Assembly (NCBI RefSeq): GCF_000210915.2
Contig: NC_016620.1
Span: 2,914,001-2,978,000, forward strand
DNA: 64,000 nt
Direction: 5' to 3'
Origin: Halobacteriovorax marinus SJ
Lineage (GTDB): Bacteria > Bdellovibrionota > Bacteriovoracia > Bacteriovoracales > Bacteriovoracaceae
The position numbers and the translations under genes were made by a program. The notes under the pieces are model-generated. The model had not been told where the DNA came from. It made no database searches and saw only the letters and a list, made by a program, of their open reading frames with translations. The stretch's first letter is position 1. The number at the start of each line of letters is the position of its first letter. Below are positions 11,514 through 20,968 of the stretch, piece by piece.

Positions 11514-12545
11514 TTAAACGAGAGCATCTCCGTCTCCACCTCTAGAAATAAAGGCCTTACCTTGAGACTCTAGTTCCTTACATTTTTGCACAATTTCAGA
11601 TTGTGCTTTTTCAACATCAGATAACTTTGTTGGCCCAAGAGCATCTAAATCCTCTTGTAATAGCCCGGCAGCTCTATTAGACATATTCTTAAAGAGCTTT
11701 GCTCTAATCTCTTCAGGTGCTGTTTTAAGAGCAATAACGAGCTTCTGCTGATCAACTTCTTTAAGTAGAGACTGAATACCTCTATCATCAACGTAGACAA
11801 GGTCTTCAAAAACAAACATGAGTTTTCTAATCTCTTCTGCGAGTTCAGGATCTTTCTCTTCAACTCTACCCATAATGTTCTTCTCAGAGTTCTTATCCAT
11901 AAGGTTAAGCATATCTGCAATAGGCTCAACTCCACCCAGTTGATTTGTATCAATAGAACCAAGAGTAGAGAGTTCTGTTTTAAGCACATCATCAAGTTGT
12001 GCAATAAGCTCAGGAGAAACATAGTCTAAATTAGAAACTCTTAGAACAACTTCGGCCTGTAACCCTTCAGGTAATCTTCTTAAGACATCAACTTTTCTCT
12101 CAGCATTTAAGTGAGCAATAATTAATGCGATAGTCTGAGGGTGCTCATTGATAAGGAAGTTTGCTAGAGTTCTTGTATCAACTAGTTCAAGTGACTCAAG
12201 AGTATTTGAAGCTCCCACATCAACAATCTGTCCAAGTAACTGCTTCGCTCTATCTTCACCAAGAGCATTGATGATGAAGTCTCTTCCCCTATTCTCAGAG
12301 AATAATAAATCATTATCTTCATTTAAGTGTGAGTAGAATTCTTCAAGAACTCTCTTGATCATCCAAATAGGGGCTTTATTAATTGATGACATCGCATTAA
12401 TCATACGTTTAACATCATTATCTCTCATATATGAGAAGATTAATTGAGTTGTTTGAACACCCAATGAACTCAAAAGGATCGCGGCCTTATCCTGCCCCGA
12501 TAATAGTGAGTATTCAATATCTGGTTCTAAACCTTGCTCTGCCAT
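11514..12545 (-). CDS. fliG: Flagellar motor switch protein FliG
   Basis: FliG is the rotor protein of the C ring that receives torque from the stator. The 343 residues match the full family length. The N-terminal domain (LSGQDKAAILLSSLGVQTTQ) binds FliF, the middle domain has the EHPQTIALIIAHLNAERKV motif, equivalent to the EHPQ signature that binds FliM, and the C-terminal domain holds the charged torque helix (VYVDDRGIQSLLKEVDQQKL, ALKTAPEEIRAKLFKNMSNR). It starts 20 bases after fliF ends. Confidence 0.97.
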   Translation of the reverse strand: MAEQGLEPDIEYSLLSGQDKAAILLSSLGVQTTQLIFSYMRDNDVKRMINAMSSINKAPIWMIKRVLEEFYSHLNEDNDLLFSENRGRDFIINALGEDRAKQLLGQIVDVGASNTLESLELVDTRTLANFLINEHPQTIALIIAHLNAERKVDVLRRLPEGLQAEVVLRVSNLDYVSPELIAQLDDVLKTELSTLGSIDTNQLGGVEPIADMLNLMDKNSEKNIMGRVEEKDPELAEEIRKLMFVFEDLVYVDDRGIQSLLKEVDQQKLVIALKTAPEEIRAKLFKNMSNRAAGLLQEDLDALGPTKLSDVEKAQSEIVQKCKELESQGKAFISRGGDGDALV

Positions 12546-12564: not shown

Positions 12565-14229
12565 TTATGCTATCTGCTTATCTGACTCTTGAGCATGGAT
12601 TATTTCATGGATAACTTGTGCTGCCTTGGCAGGGTTTCCTTCAACTAGTGAAATAATCTTCTCTCTCAACATATTCCCTTCGATCTTCTCAGGGTTTAGC
12701 TTCTCTTCTATCTGTGGAAGCGCATCTTCAAGCCCTGGTAACTTTTGATTTGCTTGAACTTTCTCAAGCTCTTCAAGAGTTTTAGGTAGGAAGTCTTCAA
12801 CAGTTTCAACTGTATTATCAGTTACCCACTGAATAAATGGTCTAACAACTAGGAAGAAAAAGAGAGTTATCGCTAAACCTACAGTAAGATACTTAACGAT
12901 ATTCTTGATAAGTTCTCTATTTTCTTTCTCTCTCATCATCGCTTCAATAGATGCCATATCTTCTTGAGCGAACTCCATATTCTTGATAACAATTTGATCG
13001 CCTCTTCTAGCATCAATACCTAATGTAGATGAAACAATGGCTGAAAAATTTGCTAAATCTGCTTCTGACCATCTCTCGTATTGAGTAGAAATGGCTCCAT
13101 CAGCACCCTTAACCTGAACTCTTCTTCCATCAATCATTACAGCGGCACTAATTTTTCTAATACCTGCCGTTGGGTTCTTTGACTTTGTTACCTTTGATGG
13201 AACATTGTAATTTCTAGTCGCAAGTGACTTATCTACATTATTTCTAGTCTCTGGGATTCCTGGTTGTGGTTGCTCTCCAGGAAGATTTGATCTCGCTCCA
13301 GGAATTCCCTGAGGAGAAGGTCTAGAACCATTTAGCTTCTGAGTATTTGAAACCTCTGAAAGAACGGCCTTATTCTCACCGTCAAACTCTGTTTTAGTAG
13401 ATACACTCTCTGTAAAATCAAGATTTACTGTAACCTTAGCAATGACTTTTCCGGCCCCTACAACCTTTGAAAGGATATCTTCAATTTGTTTTTCATACTT
13501 TCTATTTACTTTTCCCTCAAGTGCCATTCTATTGGCAGTATAAGCGGTCATTGGATCACCAATATTCTCAGAAAGCTTCTTACCCCTATCATCTAAGATA
13601 ACAACATTTTCATTTCTCATTCCATCGATTGAGCTAGAAACAAGTGAGGCAACACCTTTAATTTCATCAGGAGTTAGTGTTACACCTCTTTCTAAGTCAA
13701 CAACTACTGAGGCAGATGGAGCTTTCTTTTCCGAAACAAATGGACTTGATTCTGGAATAGAGAGGTGAACTCTTGCTCTTTTAACACCTCTAATATATTT
13801 GATGGTTTTAACAAGCTCTCCCTCTAGGGCCCTTTGCTTATTAACTTTTTGAACAAAACTTGTCGTTCCAAATGACTGCTTATCAAAAACTTCGTATCCA
13901 ACTGTTCCAGAGAAATTTACTCCTAGAGTTGCAATCTCAAGCCTCCACTTATTGATAAGTTCTTCTGGAATACTGATCGTTTTTCCATCATTAGACATTT
14001 CATAAGGGATTTTCTTCTCTTCAAGTAAAACAGCGATCTTTTTCGAATCTTCTCTATTTAACTCTGTGTAAAGAACATCCATTCTTGTCTTAGATGCCCA
14101 AATGACAATCCCAACAAAGCAGGCAACAATAAATGCCGCAATTGAAACAAGACCAATCTTCTTATTTAGGTCGAGTGAGTTAAAAAATTCTGTGAAATTC
14201 CTTATGATCTTTTCTAAAAAATCTTGCAA
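12565..14229 (-). CDS. fliF: Flagellar MS-ring protein FliF
   Basis: FliF forms the membrane-spanning MS ring that houses the export gate. This 554-residue protein has an N-terminal helix (about 25-45), the ring-building motifs in the periplasm (KIPYEMSNDGKTISIPEE, VKRARVHLSIPESSPF, KAPSASVVVDLERGVTL), a Pro/Gln/Asn-rich loop at about 305-340, a second helix near 450-470, and the cytoplasmic FliG-binding tail. The start is a TTG at 14229; an AGGAGG site six bases upstream supports it, and no ATG occurs nearby in frame. Confidence 0.96.
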   Translation of the reverse strand: MQDFLEKIIRNFTEFFNSLDLNKKIGLVSIAAFIVACFVGIVIWASKTRMDVLYTELNREDSKKIAVLLEEKKIPYEMSNDGKTISIPEELINKWRLEIATLGVNFSGTVGYEVFDKQSFGTTSFVQKVNKQRALEGELVKTIKYIRGVKRARVHLSIPESSPFVSEKKAPSASVVVDLERGVTLTPDEIKGVASLVSSSIDGMRNENVVILDDRGKKLSENIGDPMTAYTANRMALEGKVNRKYEKQIEDILSKVVGAGKVIAKVTVNLDFTESVSTKTEFDGENKAVLSEVSNTQKLNGSRPSPQGIPGARSNLPGEQPQPGIPETRNNVDKSLATRNYNVPSKVTKSKNPTAGIRKISAAVMIDGRRVQVKGADGAISTQYERWSEADLANFSAIVSSTLGIDARRGDQIVIKNMEFAQEDMASIEAMMREKENRELIKNIVKYLTVGLAITLFFFLVVRPFIQWVTDNTVETVEDFLPKTLEELEKVQANQKLPGLEDALPQIEEKLNPEKIEGNMLREKIISLVEGNPAKAAQVIHEIIHAQESDKQIA

Positions 14230-14290: not shown

Positions 14291-14656
14291 TTATATTTGC
14301 ATTCTCATTACTTCTTTATAAGCATCAATGACTTTAGTCCTAATTTGGTTCATAGTTCTAAAAGCAATATCAGCTTTTTCTACTGCCATCATTACCTCTG
14401 GAAGATTCTTCTTCTCTCCAGAAGCAAGTTTTTGCATGGCCGTATTGGCTTCTTGTTGAAGTCCATTTACTTGTGCAATAGAGCTGGCTAACATTTCACC
14501 AAAACTCTGCTTTGCCTGTGTACCTTCAACATCACCTATTGAAAGCTCATTGAAGTTGATGGCCTTTGCCCCATCGAGTTCAGCGCTCTTGGTCCAGTCC
14601 TTTGAACTATAATCATTCAAAATACTTTTCATAGATCCTACTGTTTCAATTGGCAT
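14291..14656 (-). CDS. fliE: Flagellar basal-body protein FliE
   Basis: FliE joins the MS ring to the rod. This 121-residue protein shows the conserved C-terminal helices (LASSIAQVNGLQQEANTAMQ, LPEVMMAVEKADIAFRTMNQ, then IRTKVIDAYKEVMRMQI), with a variable N-terminus. The length is close to that of the family. It follows flgC by 13 bases and is followed by fliF after 61 bases, the standard order. Confidence 0.95.
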   Translation of the reverse strand: MPIETVGSMKSILNDYSSKDWTKSAELDGAKAINFNELSIGDVEGTQAKQSFGEMLASSIAQVNGLQQEANTAMQKLASGEKKNLPEVMMAVEKADIAFRTMNQIRTKVIDAYKEVMRMQI

Positions 14657-14669
14657 AACCTACTCCCTC

Positions 14670-15110
14670 TTAGTTTCGACCAAGCTCTAGAGCCTTCATG
14701 GCCATATTCTTAGTCGTATTCATAGCATTGATATTGGCTTCGTATGCTCTCGAAGCCGATATCATATTTGCCATTTCTTCCATTACATTAATATCTGGAT
14801 AAGCAACATAACCTTGATCGTTAGCATCAGGGTGATTTGGTTCATACTTTAAGATAGGAGGTCTGTTAGTACTAATCACCTCTGTTGCTTGAACAGTTTG
14901 TGCTTTCTCACCAAGTTCGCCTTCAAGAATCTCTGAAAAAGTTTCTCTCGCTGGCTCTGAACCAAAAACAACTTCTTTACGTCTATAAGGGCCACCTTCA
15001 GCCGTTCTCGTCGTTTGAGCGTTCGCAATATTCGAAGAAATCGAGGCCATTCGCTTTTTATTAGCGGCTAAACCTGAAGAACTTATTTTTAAAGAGGTTA
15101 ATAAATCCAT
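14670..15110 (-). CDS. flgC: Flagellar basal-body rod protein FlgC
   Basis: A proximal rod subunit of 146 residues. The N-terminal rod motif is LLTSLKISSSGLAANKKRMA followed by SISSNIANAQT, and the C-terminus carries NVMEEMANMISASRAYEANI, the shared rod/hook coiled-coil signature. It lies nine bases downstream of flgB and 13 bases before fliE. Confidence 0.97.
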   Translation of the reverse strand: MDLLTSLKISSSGLAANKKRMASISSNIANAQTTRTAEGGPYRRKEVVFGSEPARETFSEILEGELGEKAQTVQATEVISTNRPPILKYEPNHPDANDQGYVAYPDINVMEEMANMISASRAYEANINAMNTTKNMAMKALELGRN

Positions 15111-15119
15111 CTATTCTCC

Positions 15120-15527
15120 TTAGTTACTTGAACCAACTGCGTACTTCATGAGTCCAAATTTTTTATTAATTAATTGCACCGTTGCATCGTATAAGATCTT
15201 ATTCTCTGCCATTCGTGCTAGTTCTGCATCTCTGTCTACTGTATTTCCATCCTCACTTACAATTCCATTAGGATCTTCGTATACCTCTGGTTGTAAATTC
15301 CCAAAGCCACCGCTTCCTACATCGAAGTGACGTGAATCTTCAGTATTAAGTTGTTGCTGTCCATCAACGTCCAACGCTCTCGCCAGGGCCTGCTCAAAGT
15401 CTACTCTTTTCGCTTTATAACCTGGCGTTTCAGCATTAGCGATATTAGAAGAGATAATCTCCTGTCTCATCTGTCTGAAATTCAGTGATGATGCTAGTGC
15501 TTTAAGTGTTTTATCGTTTACATCCAT
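15120..15527 (-). CDS. flgB: Flagellar basal-body rod protein FlgB
   Basis: A proximal rod subunit of 135 residues. The N-terminal region shows LASSLNFRQMRQEIISSNIA then NAETPGYKAKRVDFEQAL, and the C-terminus ARMAENKILYDATVQLINKK FGLMKYAVG is typical of FlgB. It is the first structural gene of the run, starting about 31 bases after the AAA+ regulator gene ends, so structural and regulatory genes probably share a transcript. Confidence 0.97.
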   Translation of the reverse strand: MDVNDKTLKALASSLNFRQMRQEIISSNIANAETPGYKAKRVDFEQALARALDVDGQQQLNTEDSRHFDVGSGGFGNLQPEVYEDPNGIVSEDGNTVDRDAELARMAENKILYDATVQLINKKFGLMKYAVGSSN

Positions 15528-15558: not shown

Positions 15559-16488
15559 TTATCTTAAGTTTACAAAGTATGCTGATCCATTATTTCTATA
15601 TTCATTAATTTTATTTCTAAGAGTTCTAATTGAAACTCCAAGAATCTTTGCTGCTTGAGTTCTATTTTCACTTGTGTGAATTAAAGCCTTCTTAATTAAT
15701 AGCTTCTCAGCTTCTTTTAAAGACATTAATCTGATTCCATCAGAATCATCATCACTCATCATACTTACAGCTTTCTTCTCACCAATTTCTAAGTCAGCTT
15801 CTGTTAAAACACCTGTAGAGTTATTTTCAAGTGCATTCTCAAGAACTGTTCTTAGTTCATTTACATTATGAGTCCAGTAGTGACCAAGAATTTTATCCAT
15901 TGCTGAGCTATCTACTGATACTGAGTCTTCAGAGAACTCTTGTACAAAGTGTCTTGCGATTTCTTCAAGGTCAGTTACTCTCTCTCTTAATGGAGTTAGT
16001 GAAATTGCATTTGAAGAAATAAAAGTATAGAGACCTCTATAAAATCTTCCTGATCCAACTAACTTAGATAAGTTCTTAGTCGTTGTTGCAAGAATTCTTA
16101 CATCAATATCGTAGTCTTCTAATTCATTTAAAATTTTGTGAAGTCTTTTTTGGAACTCATCTTCTAGACAATCAATATTTGCGAAAACAACTGATCCACC
16201 GTTAGCAGCTTCAAGAGCTCCCTTAACGAATCTTCCAGTCTCTTCTTCTCTATGTCCTAGAATTTGATTTTCTACAGTTTGAGCATCTGCTGAACAATCA
16301 ACACAGATATATGAGCTATTTGCTCTTGTAGAATTTTCGTGGATATAACGACTTAAGGCCCTCTTACCTACTCCCGTTTCACCAACAACTAATACTGGGG
16401 CTTTTGTTACAGAAATATTCCTAGCTACCGAAATGGCCTTCGTTACCTTAGGATCTTTACCGAAAAGCTCAACTCTAACTGATTCCAT
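15559..16488 (-). CDS. Degenerate sigma-54-type AAA+ protein with Fis HTH (flagellar locus)
   Basis: A 309-residue protein with the architecture of a sigma-54 activator lacking a receiver: AAA+ domain (about 8-230) and Fis-type HTH (TQAAKILGVSIRTLRNKINEY). Walker A is intact (GETGVGKR, about 36-43). The part that should read GHEKGAFTGA reads GHREEETGRF, so the sigma-54 contact loop is gone; Walker B is VVFANIDCL in place of an LFLDE-type motif; and the arginine-finger segment is RFYRGLYTFIS, where the two usual Arg positions hold Tyr and Phe. It probably cannot remodel sigma-54 holoenzyme, and could act as a DNA-binding modulator of the partner regulator at 19448-20968 (inference). ATG 16488 is chosen because AGGAGG lies just before it; the longer frame would start at TTG 16503 upstream of that site. 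Confidence 0.85.
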   Translation of the reverse strand: MESVRVELFGKDPKVTKAISVARNISVTKAPVLVVGETGVGKRALSRYIHENSTRANSSYICVDCSADAQTVENQILGHREEETGRFVKGALEAANGGSVVFANIDCLEDEFQKRLHKILNELEDYDIDVRILATTTKNLSKLVGSGRFYRGLYTFISSNAISLTPLRERVTDLEEIARHFVQEFSEDSVSVDSSAMDKILGHYWTHNVNELRTVLENALENNSTGVLTEADLEIGEKKAVSMMSDDDSDGIRLMSLKEAEKLLIKKALIHTSENRTQAAKILGVSIRTLRNKINEYRNNGSAYFVNLR

Positions 16489-16529: not shown

Positions 16530-19178
16530 TTATAAAGTTCTTTCTTTTATTTTTAACATGCTCAGCTCACTACGAGCTAAATTCTTGATATGCTCATCAA
16601 TCCCATCTTCAGAGATTAGCTTTTCAAGAATTTCTTTTCCTTCATCATTTTTCTTATTATTTAAAAGTGCTAAACCTAATAAGTAATTTACTCTTCCTAA
16701 ATAAATAGACTTACTAAATTCCTCTTTAAATCTTTTAATTTTTGACTCCATTAGCATGAAGCTTGCGTCTTTCTCATCTCCAGCTAATAGCTCGATATTT
16801 AAGTAAGAAACTTTCTCTCTAACTGAGTCCATGTATTCATTTTTCTTCTTAAGACCTCTAGTATCACTTAAAAGAGCACTAGCAACTTTCTGATACTTCT
16901 TCGTATCTCCTAATTCATAAAGACAATCTGTATAGGCCTTAACTAATTCAGCAATTTCTTTCGGGTCAGTAATAGAGCTATCTTTTCCACTTGAAAGAAA
17001 CTTCTCAAATGAGTCAGCGCCTTTTTTCCAATCTCCAGTATGATAAGAAAGTAGACCTTGGTAGTACTCTAATTTATCAATATTAGCTTTCTCATTTCTC
17101 AAAGTATTAAGCTCTTTTCCTACAACACTCCAATTCTTTAATTTAAGATTTCTAATAACTTGAAGTTCAGATAATAGAGTCTTTGTATCAGCGCTATTTT
17201 TTCTCTCAACCCAAATTGGAAAAGTTTTTGAGATATCGTATTTAGACTTAGAGAATTTCTCATAAAGCTCGTCAAACCCATCCATTAATCCAAGTCTGAT
17301 GTAAGCATTAGCTACTAAGAAATTCATCTGTGGATCGTTTGCAACCTTATCAACATATTGATCCTTGTATATATCCCATGCCTTAATAACATTGGCATAA
17401 ATTCCTTCTTCAAATGACTTCTCGATAACACCGTATACAATCTCAGCTCCATCACTTTCAAAAACTCTTCTATCAGTAGGAATCATCGACTTAAGAGGAA
17501 GAGCGTTTAAATAAGCAAGCGCTTCATCATATTTCTTCTCAACAATGAATGTTCTCAAACGAACTTGCCAAAGCAACTTCTTTAGATCACTTTCAATTTT
17601 CACATTATCAATACCTGAAGTTAAAAATACTTTAACCTCTCTATCACTATCATCAACCTTCTTCTTTCTTAGATTTCTAAGAGCAACATAACGGATTCTC
17701 GCTTCAAATCCTATTTCAGAGTTTTGAGATCTATTAATGGCATTCTTATAAAGCTCAATTGTTTCATCAAAATTCTTTTCTTGAATTTCCCAGCACTGAG
17801 CGATTCTGATTCTTGCTTCAGAACTCTTAGAGTGAAATGAGTAATCCTTGATAAAATCATCATATACTTTGGCAGCTTTTGAATAATTTGAATTTCTAAA
17901 GTACGCTTCAGCGACATTATAAAGAATAACTGGGTGAACTGGCTTTACTAGAGACTTCTCATTCGCTTCATAGAGTTTAATTACCTTCTCAGACTCTTCT
18001 AAACTTAGGTAAGTATACATTTCGTAAGCAAGCATTACTTGCTTAGGTAGAATCTTTTGAATCGTTTTCTCTTTTAAAAGTTCTTGAACCTTATCAATCT
18101 GCTTAAGCTTTGCAAGATTATAAAGAATTCCTTCTGCTGCAAAATTTGACTCTTCATAATCATGACTTTCTTTAGAATCAACATAGTACTTCTTAGTTAG
18201 TTCCAAGCTTTTAATATGATCGTTTGCTTGAATATAGTAAGGGATTAAATACTTATAGATTCCACTTCTAAGTTCATAATTCTTAGACTTTAAAAGGATG
18301 TTTTCAAACATACTGATACTCATTTTAACTGGTTCAGTATTTCCTTTTGAAAAGTTTTCTCTAAGAATTGCATTGGCCTTCATGAATTCATTTGTATCAA
18401 ACTCAGTCTCTTCACCATACTTCTTATTAAATAGCTTAATAGACTTATACATTAATCCCCATTTCTTTTTTCTAAAGAGATTAATAGTTAATTGCATATG
18501 AGCTTGAGCTTCACTCTTAGAAACATCTCTATTTCCAACTTTGTAGAAGTACTCAGGAGTTTTTCTATCTAGATTAATAATTTTCTTAAGAGTTGGTGCT
18601 AGAGGTGAATAATCCCAGATAAATGAAGCACCATATCTGAAGTCTCTATAAGGAGAATTCATTTTAGGATTCACTGATTTTTGAACAATAACATTCTTAG
18701 CTGGCTTAGCTGCTACGACTTTCTTCTTTGCGGCTTTCTTTACTGGTTTTGCTACAGGCTTAGAAACATTTGCAACTGGAGCTGGCTTGGAATCTTCTTC
18801 AGTCCAAAAGTCTACAACTAACTTCTTATCTCTATCTTTATAGAAGCTAAATAGCTCTACACTTTCAGACTTAAGTTTAACTTCAACTTTTGAGCTATTA
18901 CTCATTTCAGATGGACCAACAGTCTTTATAGAAGTGATGTACTTCCCGTCTGGATCAATCTCTTTAATAGCTTGCTCTAGTTTAATATACAACTCTGTGT
19001 TTAATGTTTTGAATTGAACTGTGTCTTTATTCTTATGTATTTGAACTAAATCTTTTGGTGCGAAAATATTCCACCTAAGATGTGTTGAACCTTTTTCTTG
19101 TACAATAATTCCTGCCTTAACATTTAAGATTGTTAAGAAAGCGATTAGTGTCAAAGTTTTGAGCTTGATAGGCTGCAT
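16530..19178 (-). CDS. Large secreted TPR-repeat protein of the flagellar locus
   Basis: An 882-residue protein with a signal peptide (MQPIKLKTLTLIAFLTILNV, then KA). The first 150 residues after it look like an AMIN-type beta region (STHLRWNIFAPKDLVQIHKN, KKLVVDFWTEED), then a Lys/Ala/Pro linker (about 150-190), and then many degenerate TPR/Sel1-like helical pairs to the C-terminus (for example YNVAEAYFRNSNYSKAAKVY and IRIAQCWEIQEKNFDETIEL). It lies between two sigma-54-family genes and ahead of flgB. I know no named family; a periplasmic or envelope scaffold for the polar flagellum is a guess from context. ATG 19178 is preferred over TTG 19232: it begins a clean signal peptide and has AGGAAG upstream. 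Confidence 0.75.
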   Translation of the reverse strand: MQPIKLKTLTLIAFLTILNVKAGIIVQEKGSTHLRWNIFAPKDLVQIHKNKDTVQFKTLNTELYIKLEQAIKEIDPDGKYITSIKTVGPSEMSNSSKVEVKLKSESVELFSFYKDRDKKLVVDFWTEEDSKPAPVANVSKPVAKPVKKAAKKKVVAAKPAKNVIVQKSVNPKMNSPYRDFRYGASFIWDYSPLAPTLKKIINLDRKTPEYFYKVGNRDVSKSEAQAHMQLTINLFRKKKWGLMYKSIKLFNKKYGEETEFDTNEFMKANAILRENFSKGNTEPVKMSISMFENILLKSKNYELRSGIYKYLIPYYIQANDHIKSLELTKKYYVDSKESHDYEESNFAAEGILYNLAKLKQIDKVQELLKEKTIQKILPKQVMLAYEMYTYLSLEESEKVIKLYEANEKSLVKPVHPVILYNVAEAYFRNSNYSKAAKVYDDFIKDYSFHSKSSEARIRIAQCWEIQEKNFDETIELYKNAINRSQNSEIGFEARIRYVALRNLRKKKVDDSDREVKVFLTSGIDNVKIESDLKKLLWQVRLRTFIVEKKYDEALAYLNALPLKSMIPTDRRVFESDGAEIVYGVIEKSFEEGIYANVIKAWDIYKDQYVDKVANDPQMNFLVANAYIRLGLMDGFDELYEKFSKSKYDISKTFPIWVERKNSADTKTLLSELQVIRNLKLKNWSVVGKELNTLRNEKANIDKLEYYQGLLSYHTGDWKKGADSFEKFLSSGKDSSITDPKEIAELVKAYTDCLYELGDTKKYQKVASALLSDTRGLKKKNEYMDSVREKVSYLNIELLAGDEKDASFMLMESKIKRFKEEFSKSIYLGRVNYLLGLALLNNKKNDEGKEILEKLISEDGIDEHIKNLARSELSMLKIKERTL

Positions 19179-19415
19179 AGTAATAGAAACTTCCTGTTTC
19201 AAGTTAATGCTACCGCGACTGGTTAAATTCAATGTTCATCCTAAACATCGTTTTCCATCGCACAAACCTATTCTACCTTTTTTTGAAAAATTTTAAAGGA
19301 AAATTTTTCCAATAGGACGATTTTTCCCCACAGAAAAATGACATGGGAAAAATCTATCGCATATATACATACTTAGGTGGAAATAGGGCCAAAATGCCCT
19401 AGCTAAAAACTACAC

Positions 19416-19447: not shown

Positions 19448-20968
19448 TTATTGTTGGAATTCAATTTGCTTTTTTTTCATTTTTTCAATGAGTGTTGTTC
19501 TATTCATTGAAAGAAGTTTTGATGCTTGGTTCTTATTCCCAGCAGTCTTTGAAAGAGCTTGAAGAATTAGAGAGTCTTCAATATTTGATAGGGCCATCTT
19601 AAGATCTATCCCTGCTTCAGGAAGAGAGATTAAACTATCATATGAATTTAAATGCATTGGAGCTCTCTCTAAAAATTTAACAGGTAGATCACTTGGGCGA
19701 ATTACACTTCCACCTCTTAAGATAACTAATCTCTCCATTAAATTTTCTAACTCTCTCACATTTCCTGGCCAATCATAAGCAAGTAATAGCTCAAGAGATT
19801 CATCATCAAACTCAATACTATTTCGTCCGTCTGCACTTACAAATCTTGAAAGAAAGTACGATATTAATAATGGAATATCTTCTCTTCTTTCACAGAGTGC
19901 CGGAACCTTAATTGGAATTACGTTAAGTCTATAATATAAATCTTCTCTGAAGTTACCATCCTCAACATGTTTCTCTAGGTCCCTGTGCGTGGCCGTAATG
20001 ATTCTCACATCTACAGGTGTTGTCGTAGTACTTCCCACTCTTTCGATAACTCTTCCCTGAAGAACTCTTAAGAGTTTTACTTGAAGTAGTAGTGGCATAT
20101 CACCAATTTCATCGAGGAAGATAGAACCCTTATTCGCTAGTTCAAACCTACCCTTTCGACTTGAGATGGCTCCAGTAAAGGCACCCTTCTCATGACCAAA
20201 GAGCTCACTCTCTAGGAGTTCACCTGGTATCGCTCCACAATTTACAGAAACCATTGGGTTATCCACTCTCTGAGAAAGTGAGTGAATGGCAGAGGCAATT
20301 AATTCTTTACCTGTTCCCGAAGGACCGTTGATGAATACTGTTGAACCAGAAGAGGCTACTTTTTCAATCCTCTCAAAGACTTGTTTCATCTTTGCTGAGC
20401 GACCAATCATTCCACAGAAGATATCTTCTTCATTAGGAGCTTCAATCTTAAAAGATCTCTCAATTCCTGTACTCTTCTTCGGGATAGTGACTTTAGGTGT
20501 TTCAACTTTAAAATCTTTTTCTGTGTATCCAAGCTTAGAAATTGCGGCCTTCATTATTAGGTCCGTAAGAACATCAAGCTCAAATGGTTTTGTAAGATAG
20601 TGAAAAACTCCCTTCTTAGTTGCTGCAATTGCAGTTTCAATAGAAGCAAAGCCAGTCATTACAATAGGAATAAACTTGTGACCCTTTTCTTTAAGAAGGT
20701 CAATCAGAAGTAGGCCATCGGCCCCTCCGTCATCAAAGCTTATATCTGTGATTAAGATAAATTGCTCACTAGAAGATCTTTCATTGATCTGGGCAATTGC
20801 AGCACCTGGATCAGAGTGATAACTAACTTCAAGGCCCAATTTCTTTTGAATAAATTTCTTAAGTGTTTTTCCAAAGATTAAATCGTCTTCAACCAGAAAA
20901 ACTTCAGGTAGGCTGGGTTTATCTTCACTGCTTTCATAAGAATTGTGAAGAAATTCAAATTCGTTCAA
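19448..20968 (-). CDS. Sigma-54-dependent response regulator (FlrC/FlgR-like)
   Basis: A three-domain activator of about 506 residues: receiver (about 20-140; acidic pocket in FLVEDD, phosphoacceptor in ILITDIS, Lys in HYLTKPFE), AAA+ (about 185-420) and Fis HTH (NKNQASKLLSMNRTTLIEKM). The AAA+ part is complete: GPSGTGKE, GHEKGAFTGA, IFLDEIGDM, FREDLYYRLNVIPIKVP. It should activate sigma-54 promoters when phosphorylated by a sensor kinase not in this window. Position upstream of the flagellar run suggests a flagellar master activator. The longest frame starts at TTG 20989, but AAGGAG lies six bases before TTG 20968, which I take as the start. Confidence 0.92.
   Translation of the reverse strand: MNEFEFLHNSYESSEDKPSLPEVFLVEDDLIFGKTLKKFIQKKLGLEVSYHSDPGAAIAQINERSSSEQFILITDISFDDGGADGLLLIDLLKEKGHKFIPIVMTGFASIETAIAATKKGVFHYLTKPFELDVLTDLIMKAAISKLGYTEKDFKVETPKVTIPKKSTGIERSFKIEAPNEEDIFCGMIGRSAKMKQVFERIEKVASSGSTVFINGPSGTGKELIASAIHSLSQRVDNPMVSVNCGAIPGELLESELFGHEKGAFTGAISSRKGRFELANKGSIFLDEIGDMPLLLQVKLLRVLQGRVIERVGSTTTTPVDVRIITATHRDLEKHVEDGNFREDLYYRLNVIPIKVPALCERREDIPLLISYFLSRFVSADGRNSIEFDDESLELLLAYDWPGNVRELENLMERLVILRGGSVIRPSDLPVKFLERAPMHLNSYDSLISLPEAGIDLKMALSNIEDSLILQALSKTAGNKNQASKLLSMNRTTLIEKMKKKQIEFQQ

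Follow-up and report, generated by a model that had tools for sequence, protein, structure and literature searches.

A regulator gene in a flagellar unit

The window, a 64,000-nucleotide stretch of the Halobacteriovorax marinus SJ genome (3,437,906 bases in 2 contigs), carries a minus-strand flagellar unit headed by a TPR gene. Between this gene and flgB lies a gene encoding a sigma-54-type AAA+ protein with a Fis-type helix-turn-helix (HTH), here called pseudo-FlbD.

19448-20968, minus strand: intact NtrC-type response-regulator enhancer-binding protein, in a separate unit
16530-19232, minus strand: TPR gene, first in the unit, with the ATG at 19178 as the more likely start
15559-16488, minus strand: pseudo-FlbD, a 309-aa sigma-54-type AAA+/Fis-HTH protein without activator motifs
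15120-15527, minus strand: flgB, 31 nt downstream of pseudo-FlbD
14670-15110, minus strand: flgC
14291-14656, minus strand: fliE
12565-14229, minus strand: fliF
11514-12545, minus strand: fliG

The pseudo-FlbD gene is part of a TPR-AAA-flgB-flgC-fliE-fliF unit, which has a conserved promoter of its own. A reading of the same DNA from sequence alone (the sequence-only reading) had placed it in one operon with the intact regulator at 19448-20968, but this placement is not supported: the two are parted by a 215-nt gap holding two hairpins and the unit's own promoter. The HTH of the intact regulator (NKNQASKLLSMNRTTLIEKMKKK) is also unlike that of pseudo-FlbD (NRTQAAKILGVSIRTLRNKINEY), which makes competition for a shared operator a less than obvious model, and the pseudo-FlbD HTH was found in no other PF00158 protein of the genome.

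The likely start of pseudo-FlbD is the ATG at 16488, with AGGAGG immediately 5' of it. The protein matches the Pfam families Sigma54_activat (83 bits; cut-off 20.2), AAA_lid_14 and HTH_8; the Pfam search revealed no receiver domain, marking it as a stand-alone protein. Walker A alone is kept among the activator motifs:

16360-16383, minus strand: Walker A GETGVGKR (residues 36-43), kept
16291-16302, minus strand: VDCS (residues 63-66), switch Asn replaced by Asp
16228-16257, minus strand: GHREEETGRF (residues 78-87) where GHEKGAFTGA is expected, L1 region shortened
16171-16191, minus strand: VVFANID (residues 100-106), Walker B DE replaced by AN
16066-16089, minus strand: ATTTKNLS (residues 134-141), sensor I Asn replaced by Thr
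16015-16044, minus strand: FYRGLYTFIS (residues 149-158), Y and F at the two arginine-finger positions
15847-15867, minus strand: NVNELRT (residues 208-214), sensor II Arg lost
15598-15666, minus strand: HTH with FlbD-like recognition helix, near-invariant in the family

The losses of GAFTGA, the Walker B acidic pair and the arginine fingers, already claimed by the sequence-only reading, were thus confirmed residue by residue. To these can be added the switch Asn, the sensor I Asn, the sensor II Arg and the shortening of both loops, L1 having 10-11 residues versus 14 and L2 having 7 versus 15. An AlphaFold model (pLDDT 83) matches the AAA+ domains of NtrC1, FlrC, PspF and FleQ, and its residues 78-89 form two short strands at the place expected for L1. 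The arginine of FYR (R151), one residue past the first finger position, is invariant in a 47-member alignment, and a displaced arginine finger at this residue is possible. Functional sigma-54 activation by pseudo-FlbD itself nevertheless seems hardly possible from its residues.

Other degenerate enhancer-binding proteins seem to be common in this lineage. Three more sigma-54-type proteins of the same genome, 517, 657 and 623 aa long, show neither GAFTGA nor the Walker B DE in the alignment; they lie at G000 C1:2730968-2731888 (L007), 2140161-2140613 (L009) and 1456174-1456599 (L010). Besides the true FliG, the genome also encodes separate FliG_C-like proteins, each about 144 aa long, at G000 C1:207905-208225 and 2259927-2260244, and relatives have similar ones.

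Conservation in the family and repeated loss in the phylum

Nearly every complete genome of the family, whose members are marine predatory bacteria, has a full-length relative of pseudo-FlbD at 50-99% identity, and those with names are assigned to Bacteriovoracaceae, Halobacteriovorax and Bacteriovorax. None of the 67 aligned family members has GAFTGA, the Walker B DE or either finger arginine, and the switch Asn is Asp in 66 of the 67. For comparison we used 36 orthologues from outside the family, picked for intact GAFTGA and DE; all 36 also retain both fingers, the switch Asn and the sensor II Arg, a contrast far greater than chance would give. Within its own genus, pseudo-FlbD has dN/dS values of 0.013-0.060. 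Mean pairwise identity of the HTH is 93% in the degenerate family versus 64% in the intact set, while for the AAA core the figures are 61% versus 66%.

Because the motif loss is shared by all 67 members and is accompanied by low dN/dS and a near-invariant HTH, it is evidently a fixed and selected state of the family and not decay. Whether orthologues share the loss had been proposed as a check, and every loss proves common to the family, under strong purifying selection. Orthologues with intact GAFTGA, which the sequence-only reading would have taken as a sign of decay, do occur elsewhere in the phylum, in families other than this one, but the fixation and selection of the loss speak against that interpretation.

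In these other families, a stand-alone enhancer-binding protein gene lies between a TPR gene (5') and flgB-flgC-fliE-fliF-fliG (3'), the position that pseudo-FlbD also occupies. In many lineages outside the family, the orthologue retains every motif and has GISIRTLRNKLNEY as its recognition helix; the helix (G/V)(I/V)SIRTLRNK(L/I)NEY is common to pseudo-FlbD and the intact orthologues. By descent, pseudo-FlbD is evidently the FlbD-like flagellar regulator of this phylum.

Loss of the activator motifs is not confined to one family. The orthologue of family f6, which probably includes Bdellovibrio, is a 289-aa protein with L1 deleted and IEDLD, and one f6 genome (G063) has a 257-aa form with a shrunken AAA+ domain. 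In f12, L1 is deleted, Walker B reads AE or similar and the fingers are mostly kept; the f20 orthologue has GAFAGT and LDD/LDN, and that of f23 has GAFVGA or NGFGN. In four sampled genomes, no orthologue was found at the spot upstream of flgB. A tree of concatenated FlgB, FlgC, FliE, FliF and FliG (quick search, SH-aLRT support only; the placement of the long branches L266 and L263 is uncertain) has well-supported branches that force five changes to the degenerate state, with the HTH kept every time. Since regain of all motifs is implausible, these changes point to at least five independent losses of the activator motifs in the phylum.

The promoter of the unit

A strong sigma-54 promoter (TGGCA[C/T]-N5-xTGC) lies 5' of the TPR gene in 32 of 34 intact loci, as well as in the degenerate families f6 (6/6), f23 (2/2) and f20 (1/1); it was found in 0 of 22 loci of pseudo-FlbD's family and 0 of 8 f12 loci, at a cut of at least 13 of 15.7 that was set after the scores were seen. 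Shuffled sequence yields scores in the range of the top values, 12.2 in pseudo-FlbD's family and 11.6 in f12. The loss of the motifs is evidently not tightly coupled to that of the promoter, because degenerate f6, f23 and f20 retain the sigma-54 promoter.

Upstream of the TPR gene, pseudo-FlbD's family has a fixed architecture of palindrome A, 4 nt, palindrome B, exactly 22 nt and TAGAAT, represented in the window by:

19315-19327, minus strand: palindrome A, GGAAAAATCGTCC, 4 nt before palindrome B
19298-19310, minus strand: palindrome B, GGAAAAATTTTCC, with a 22-nt spacer to the -10 hexamer
19270-19275, minus strand: candidate -10 hexamer TAGAAT

Palindrome B and the hexamer stand 22 nt apart in 73 of 93 family loci; shuffling leaves 3-8 such cases, and counts for spacers of other lengths are 2-18. 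This conserved element is a candidate sigma-70-like promoter, its two palindromes lying near -41 and -58. A centre near -41, as palindrome B would have, is the place of a class II activator. That pseudo-FlbD is the protein binding palindromes A and B is our guess.

Where intact lineages have their sigma-54 promoters, the palindromes could not be clearly recognised nearby. The idea that the family palindromes are the ancestral FlbD operator was rejected: a de novo search for dyads 5' of those promoters gave GGAAA-N3 in only 4 of about 40 regions and TTGAC/GTCAA in 5-6, neither of them convincing among some 11,000 dyads tested. The promoter pattern likewise failed to delineate a regulon, its exact match in the genome of H. 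marinus SJ being only at the TPR-unit site. A palindrome-B/-10 element with one mismatch, at G000 C1:3195568-3195608 (L298), precedes a response-regulator/AAA+ gene by 212 nt; chance alone might account for it.

The 5' leader of the unit, which folds with z = -3.1, has two hairpins with GGA in the loop, like CsrA sites, at 19186-19200 and 19232-19248 (minus strand), one of them over the Shine-Dalgarno sequence. Of 73 family loci, 40 have GGA-loop hairpins of this kind, versus 2.6 in shuffles, and csrA was present in all six genomes tested. Sigma-54 was itself present in every sufficiently complete genome tested. Genome-wide, its pattern has 285 matches with at most one mismatch versus 97 for a reversed control pattern, and a perfect match lies at G000 C1:3336457-3336471 (L278), 31 nt upstream of a flgF-like rod gene.

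Modes of regulation and their meaning

Our data suggest, with a probability of about 0.72, that pseudo-FlbD is an FlbD-derived pseudo-ATPase that regulates by DNA occupancy and not by sigma-54 remodelling. The alignments show that this version of an FlbD-like flagellar enhancer-binding protein has lost every element for cross-subunit ATP hydrolysis and for pushing on sigma-54, while strong selection has preserved its Walker A, its lid and, most of all, its DNA-recognition domain. Pseudo-FlbD would then bind the ancestral activator's kind of operator and occupy DNA, either repressing transcription or activating it by contact with RNA polymerase that carries a sigma-70-type sigma, and nucleotide binding would have at most a structural or sensory role. 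Its likely though unproven target is its own unit, where the sigma-70-like promoter with two palindromes would have replaced the ancestral sigma-54 promoter; the remaining sigma-54 promoters, such as that of the flgF-like gene, would presumably be served by intact regulators such as 19448-20968. The earlier suggestion of a DNA-binding and probably nucleotide-binding protein that would hardly activate sigma-54 promoters itself is supported by the family-wide losses under purifying selection, but its shared operon with the active regulator is not.

The main targets could instead be non-flagellar (the TPR gene or others), the flagellar position being inherited, a proposal that is compatible with DNA occupancy and narrows its target. 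FlhA and flagellin were not found in three g32 species (94-99% complete) or in G028 (91%). A search for FliG gave no match in g32 and only a 149-aa FliG_C-like protein in G028, none full-length. These genomes still carry the TPR gene and pseudo-FlbD, with a FliF-like gene next to them in loci L079 and L080. Because g32 and G028 keep the gene, and g32 also shows low dN/dS for it (0.027-0.131) and retains the palindrome-B/-10 promoter element, pseudo-FlbD is evidently useful without a flagellum. In nearly all other members, however, pseudo-FlbD is locked into the flgB unit, and we consider mainly non-flagellar targets rather unlikely. Of the two FliF-like genes, that at L079:5642-7135 (minus strand), 3' of pseudo-FlbD, scores 23.5 bits against PF01514, just under the cut-off. 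That at L080:8095-9690 (plus strand), after pseudo-FlbD, scores 59.3 bits, and a weak MgtE_N match towards the end of its product might mean a fused FliG-like part.

Alternatively, pseudo-FlbD may form mixed rings with an intact enhancer-binding protein (e.g. 19448-20968), poisoning or tuning flagellar sigma-54 promoter activity. The retained AAA+ core and Walker A, the enhancer-binding-protein fold of the model, the sigma-54 site before the flgF-like gene and the general presence of sigma-54 are consistent with such rings, as is the adjacent intact regulator, encoded in most of the family loci that extend far enough to include the neighbour. There is also a precedent in FleQ and FleT of Rhodobacter sphaeroides, reported to act as a complex (PMC7277832). 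Nonetheless, both fingers and sensor II, whose roles lie at the interfaces between subunits or close to them, have been lost and vary, the HTH and not the AAA+ domain is most constrained, and the HTHs of the two putative partners differ; mixed rings are thus an unlikely explanation. Although FleT and FleQ also place two enhancer-binding proteins in one flagellar system, FleT lacks receiver and DNA-binding domains (PMC7175178), whereas pseudo-FlbD keeps its HTH and has lost the catalytic motifs.

It is highly improbable that pseudo-FlbD is a working sigma-54 activator with unusual motifs, in which ETGRF would stand for GAFTGA, a displaced arginine for the finger and another acid for DE. The ETGRF-like loop and the FYR arginine are indeed conserved in the family, but L1 is shorter by 3-4 and L2 by 8 residues, the Walker B D and E, switch Asn, sensor I and sensor II are all replaced, and the protein's own unit lacks a sigma-54 promoter. 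Motif loss in at least five lineages and the gene's absence from its spot in four sampled genomes might be ascribed to sequencing error or to the ordinary decay of a gene that is not needed, but for this family such a reading can be dismissed given the same state in 67 members of many genera, with open frames, dN/dS below 0.15 and a near-invariant HTH.

DhaR and TyrR are regulators that act without sigma-54 and, like pseudo-FlbD, combine a sigma-54-type AAA+ domain with a Fis HTH, but they have other N-terminal domains and targets. In NCBIfam, DhaR (NF008485) is the best match of pseudo-FlbD at 164.9 bits, far below its cut-off of 551, and FlbD (NF050807) is second at 158.7 bits, far below its cut-off of 750. 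FlbD of Caulobacter crescentus, likewise a flagellar-locus regulator with a Fis-type HTH, both activates and represses and has no known kinase (PMC3930126, PMC7064773, PMC3096577); it represses fliF and activates later genes (PMC3930126; PMC3096577). Unlike pseudo-FlbD, it has GAFTGA (PMC10274813) and a receiver domain. The GAFTGA-less NtrC proteins of Caulobacter and Rhodobacter capsulatus, which are reported to act via DNA binding at sigma-70 promoters (PMC10274813), resemble pseudo-FlbD in having lost L1/GAFTGA and kept the HTH. They differ in having a receiver, and Caulobacter NtrC reportedly needs ATP binding and hydrolysis, whereas the hydrolysis motifs of pseudo-FlbD are lost. Our search of the open-access literature found no paper on an FlbD-like gene of Bdellovibrio or Bacteriovorax and no report of repeated loss at one locus. 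Single GAFTGA-less regulators are already known; recurrent complete loss together with a promoter switch appears to be new.

A fuller history can be put forward tentatively, though the odds are against its holding in every part. On at least five separate occasions within the phylum, the flagellar sigma-54 activator would have turned into a non-hydrolysing DNA-bound regulator; in Bacteriovoracaceae it would have taken over its own operon by way of a new sigma-70-type promoter whose two operators lie near -41 and -58, and in some species the circuit would have outlived the flagellum, governing a TPR/FliF-like module.

Annotation as a sigma-54 activator on the basis of PF00158 is probably wrong for these Bacteriovoracaceae and f6 proteins. 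At one locus, a single orthologous regulator offers a natural series that runs from the intact protein through loss of L1, loss of all catalytic motifs and a shrunken AAA+ domain to absence of the gene. The series shows that the ATP-driven step of sigma-54 activation can be dropped repeatedly while DNA recognition stays fixed, and it provides a testable case of an enhancer-dependent promoter and its activator changing to ordinary control.
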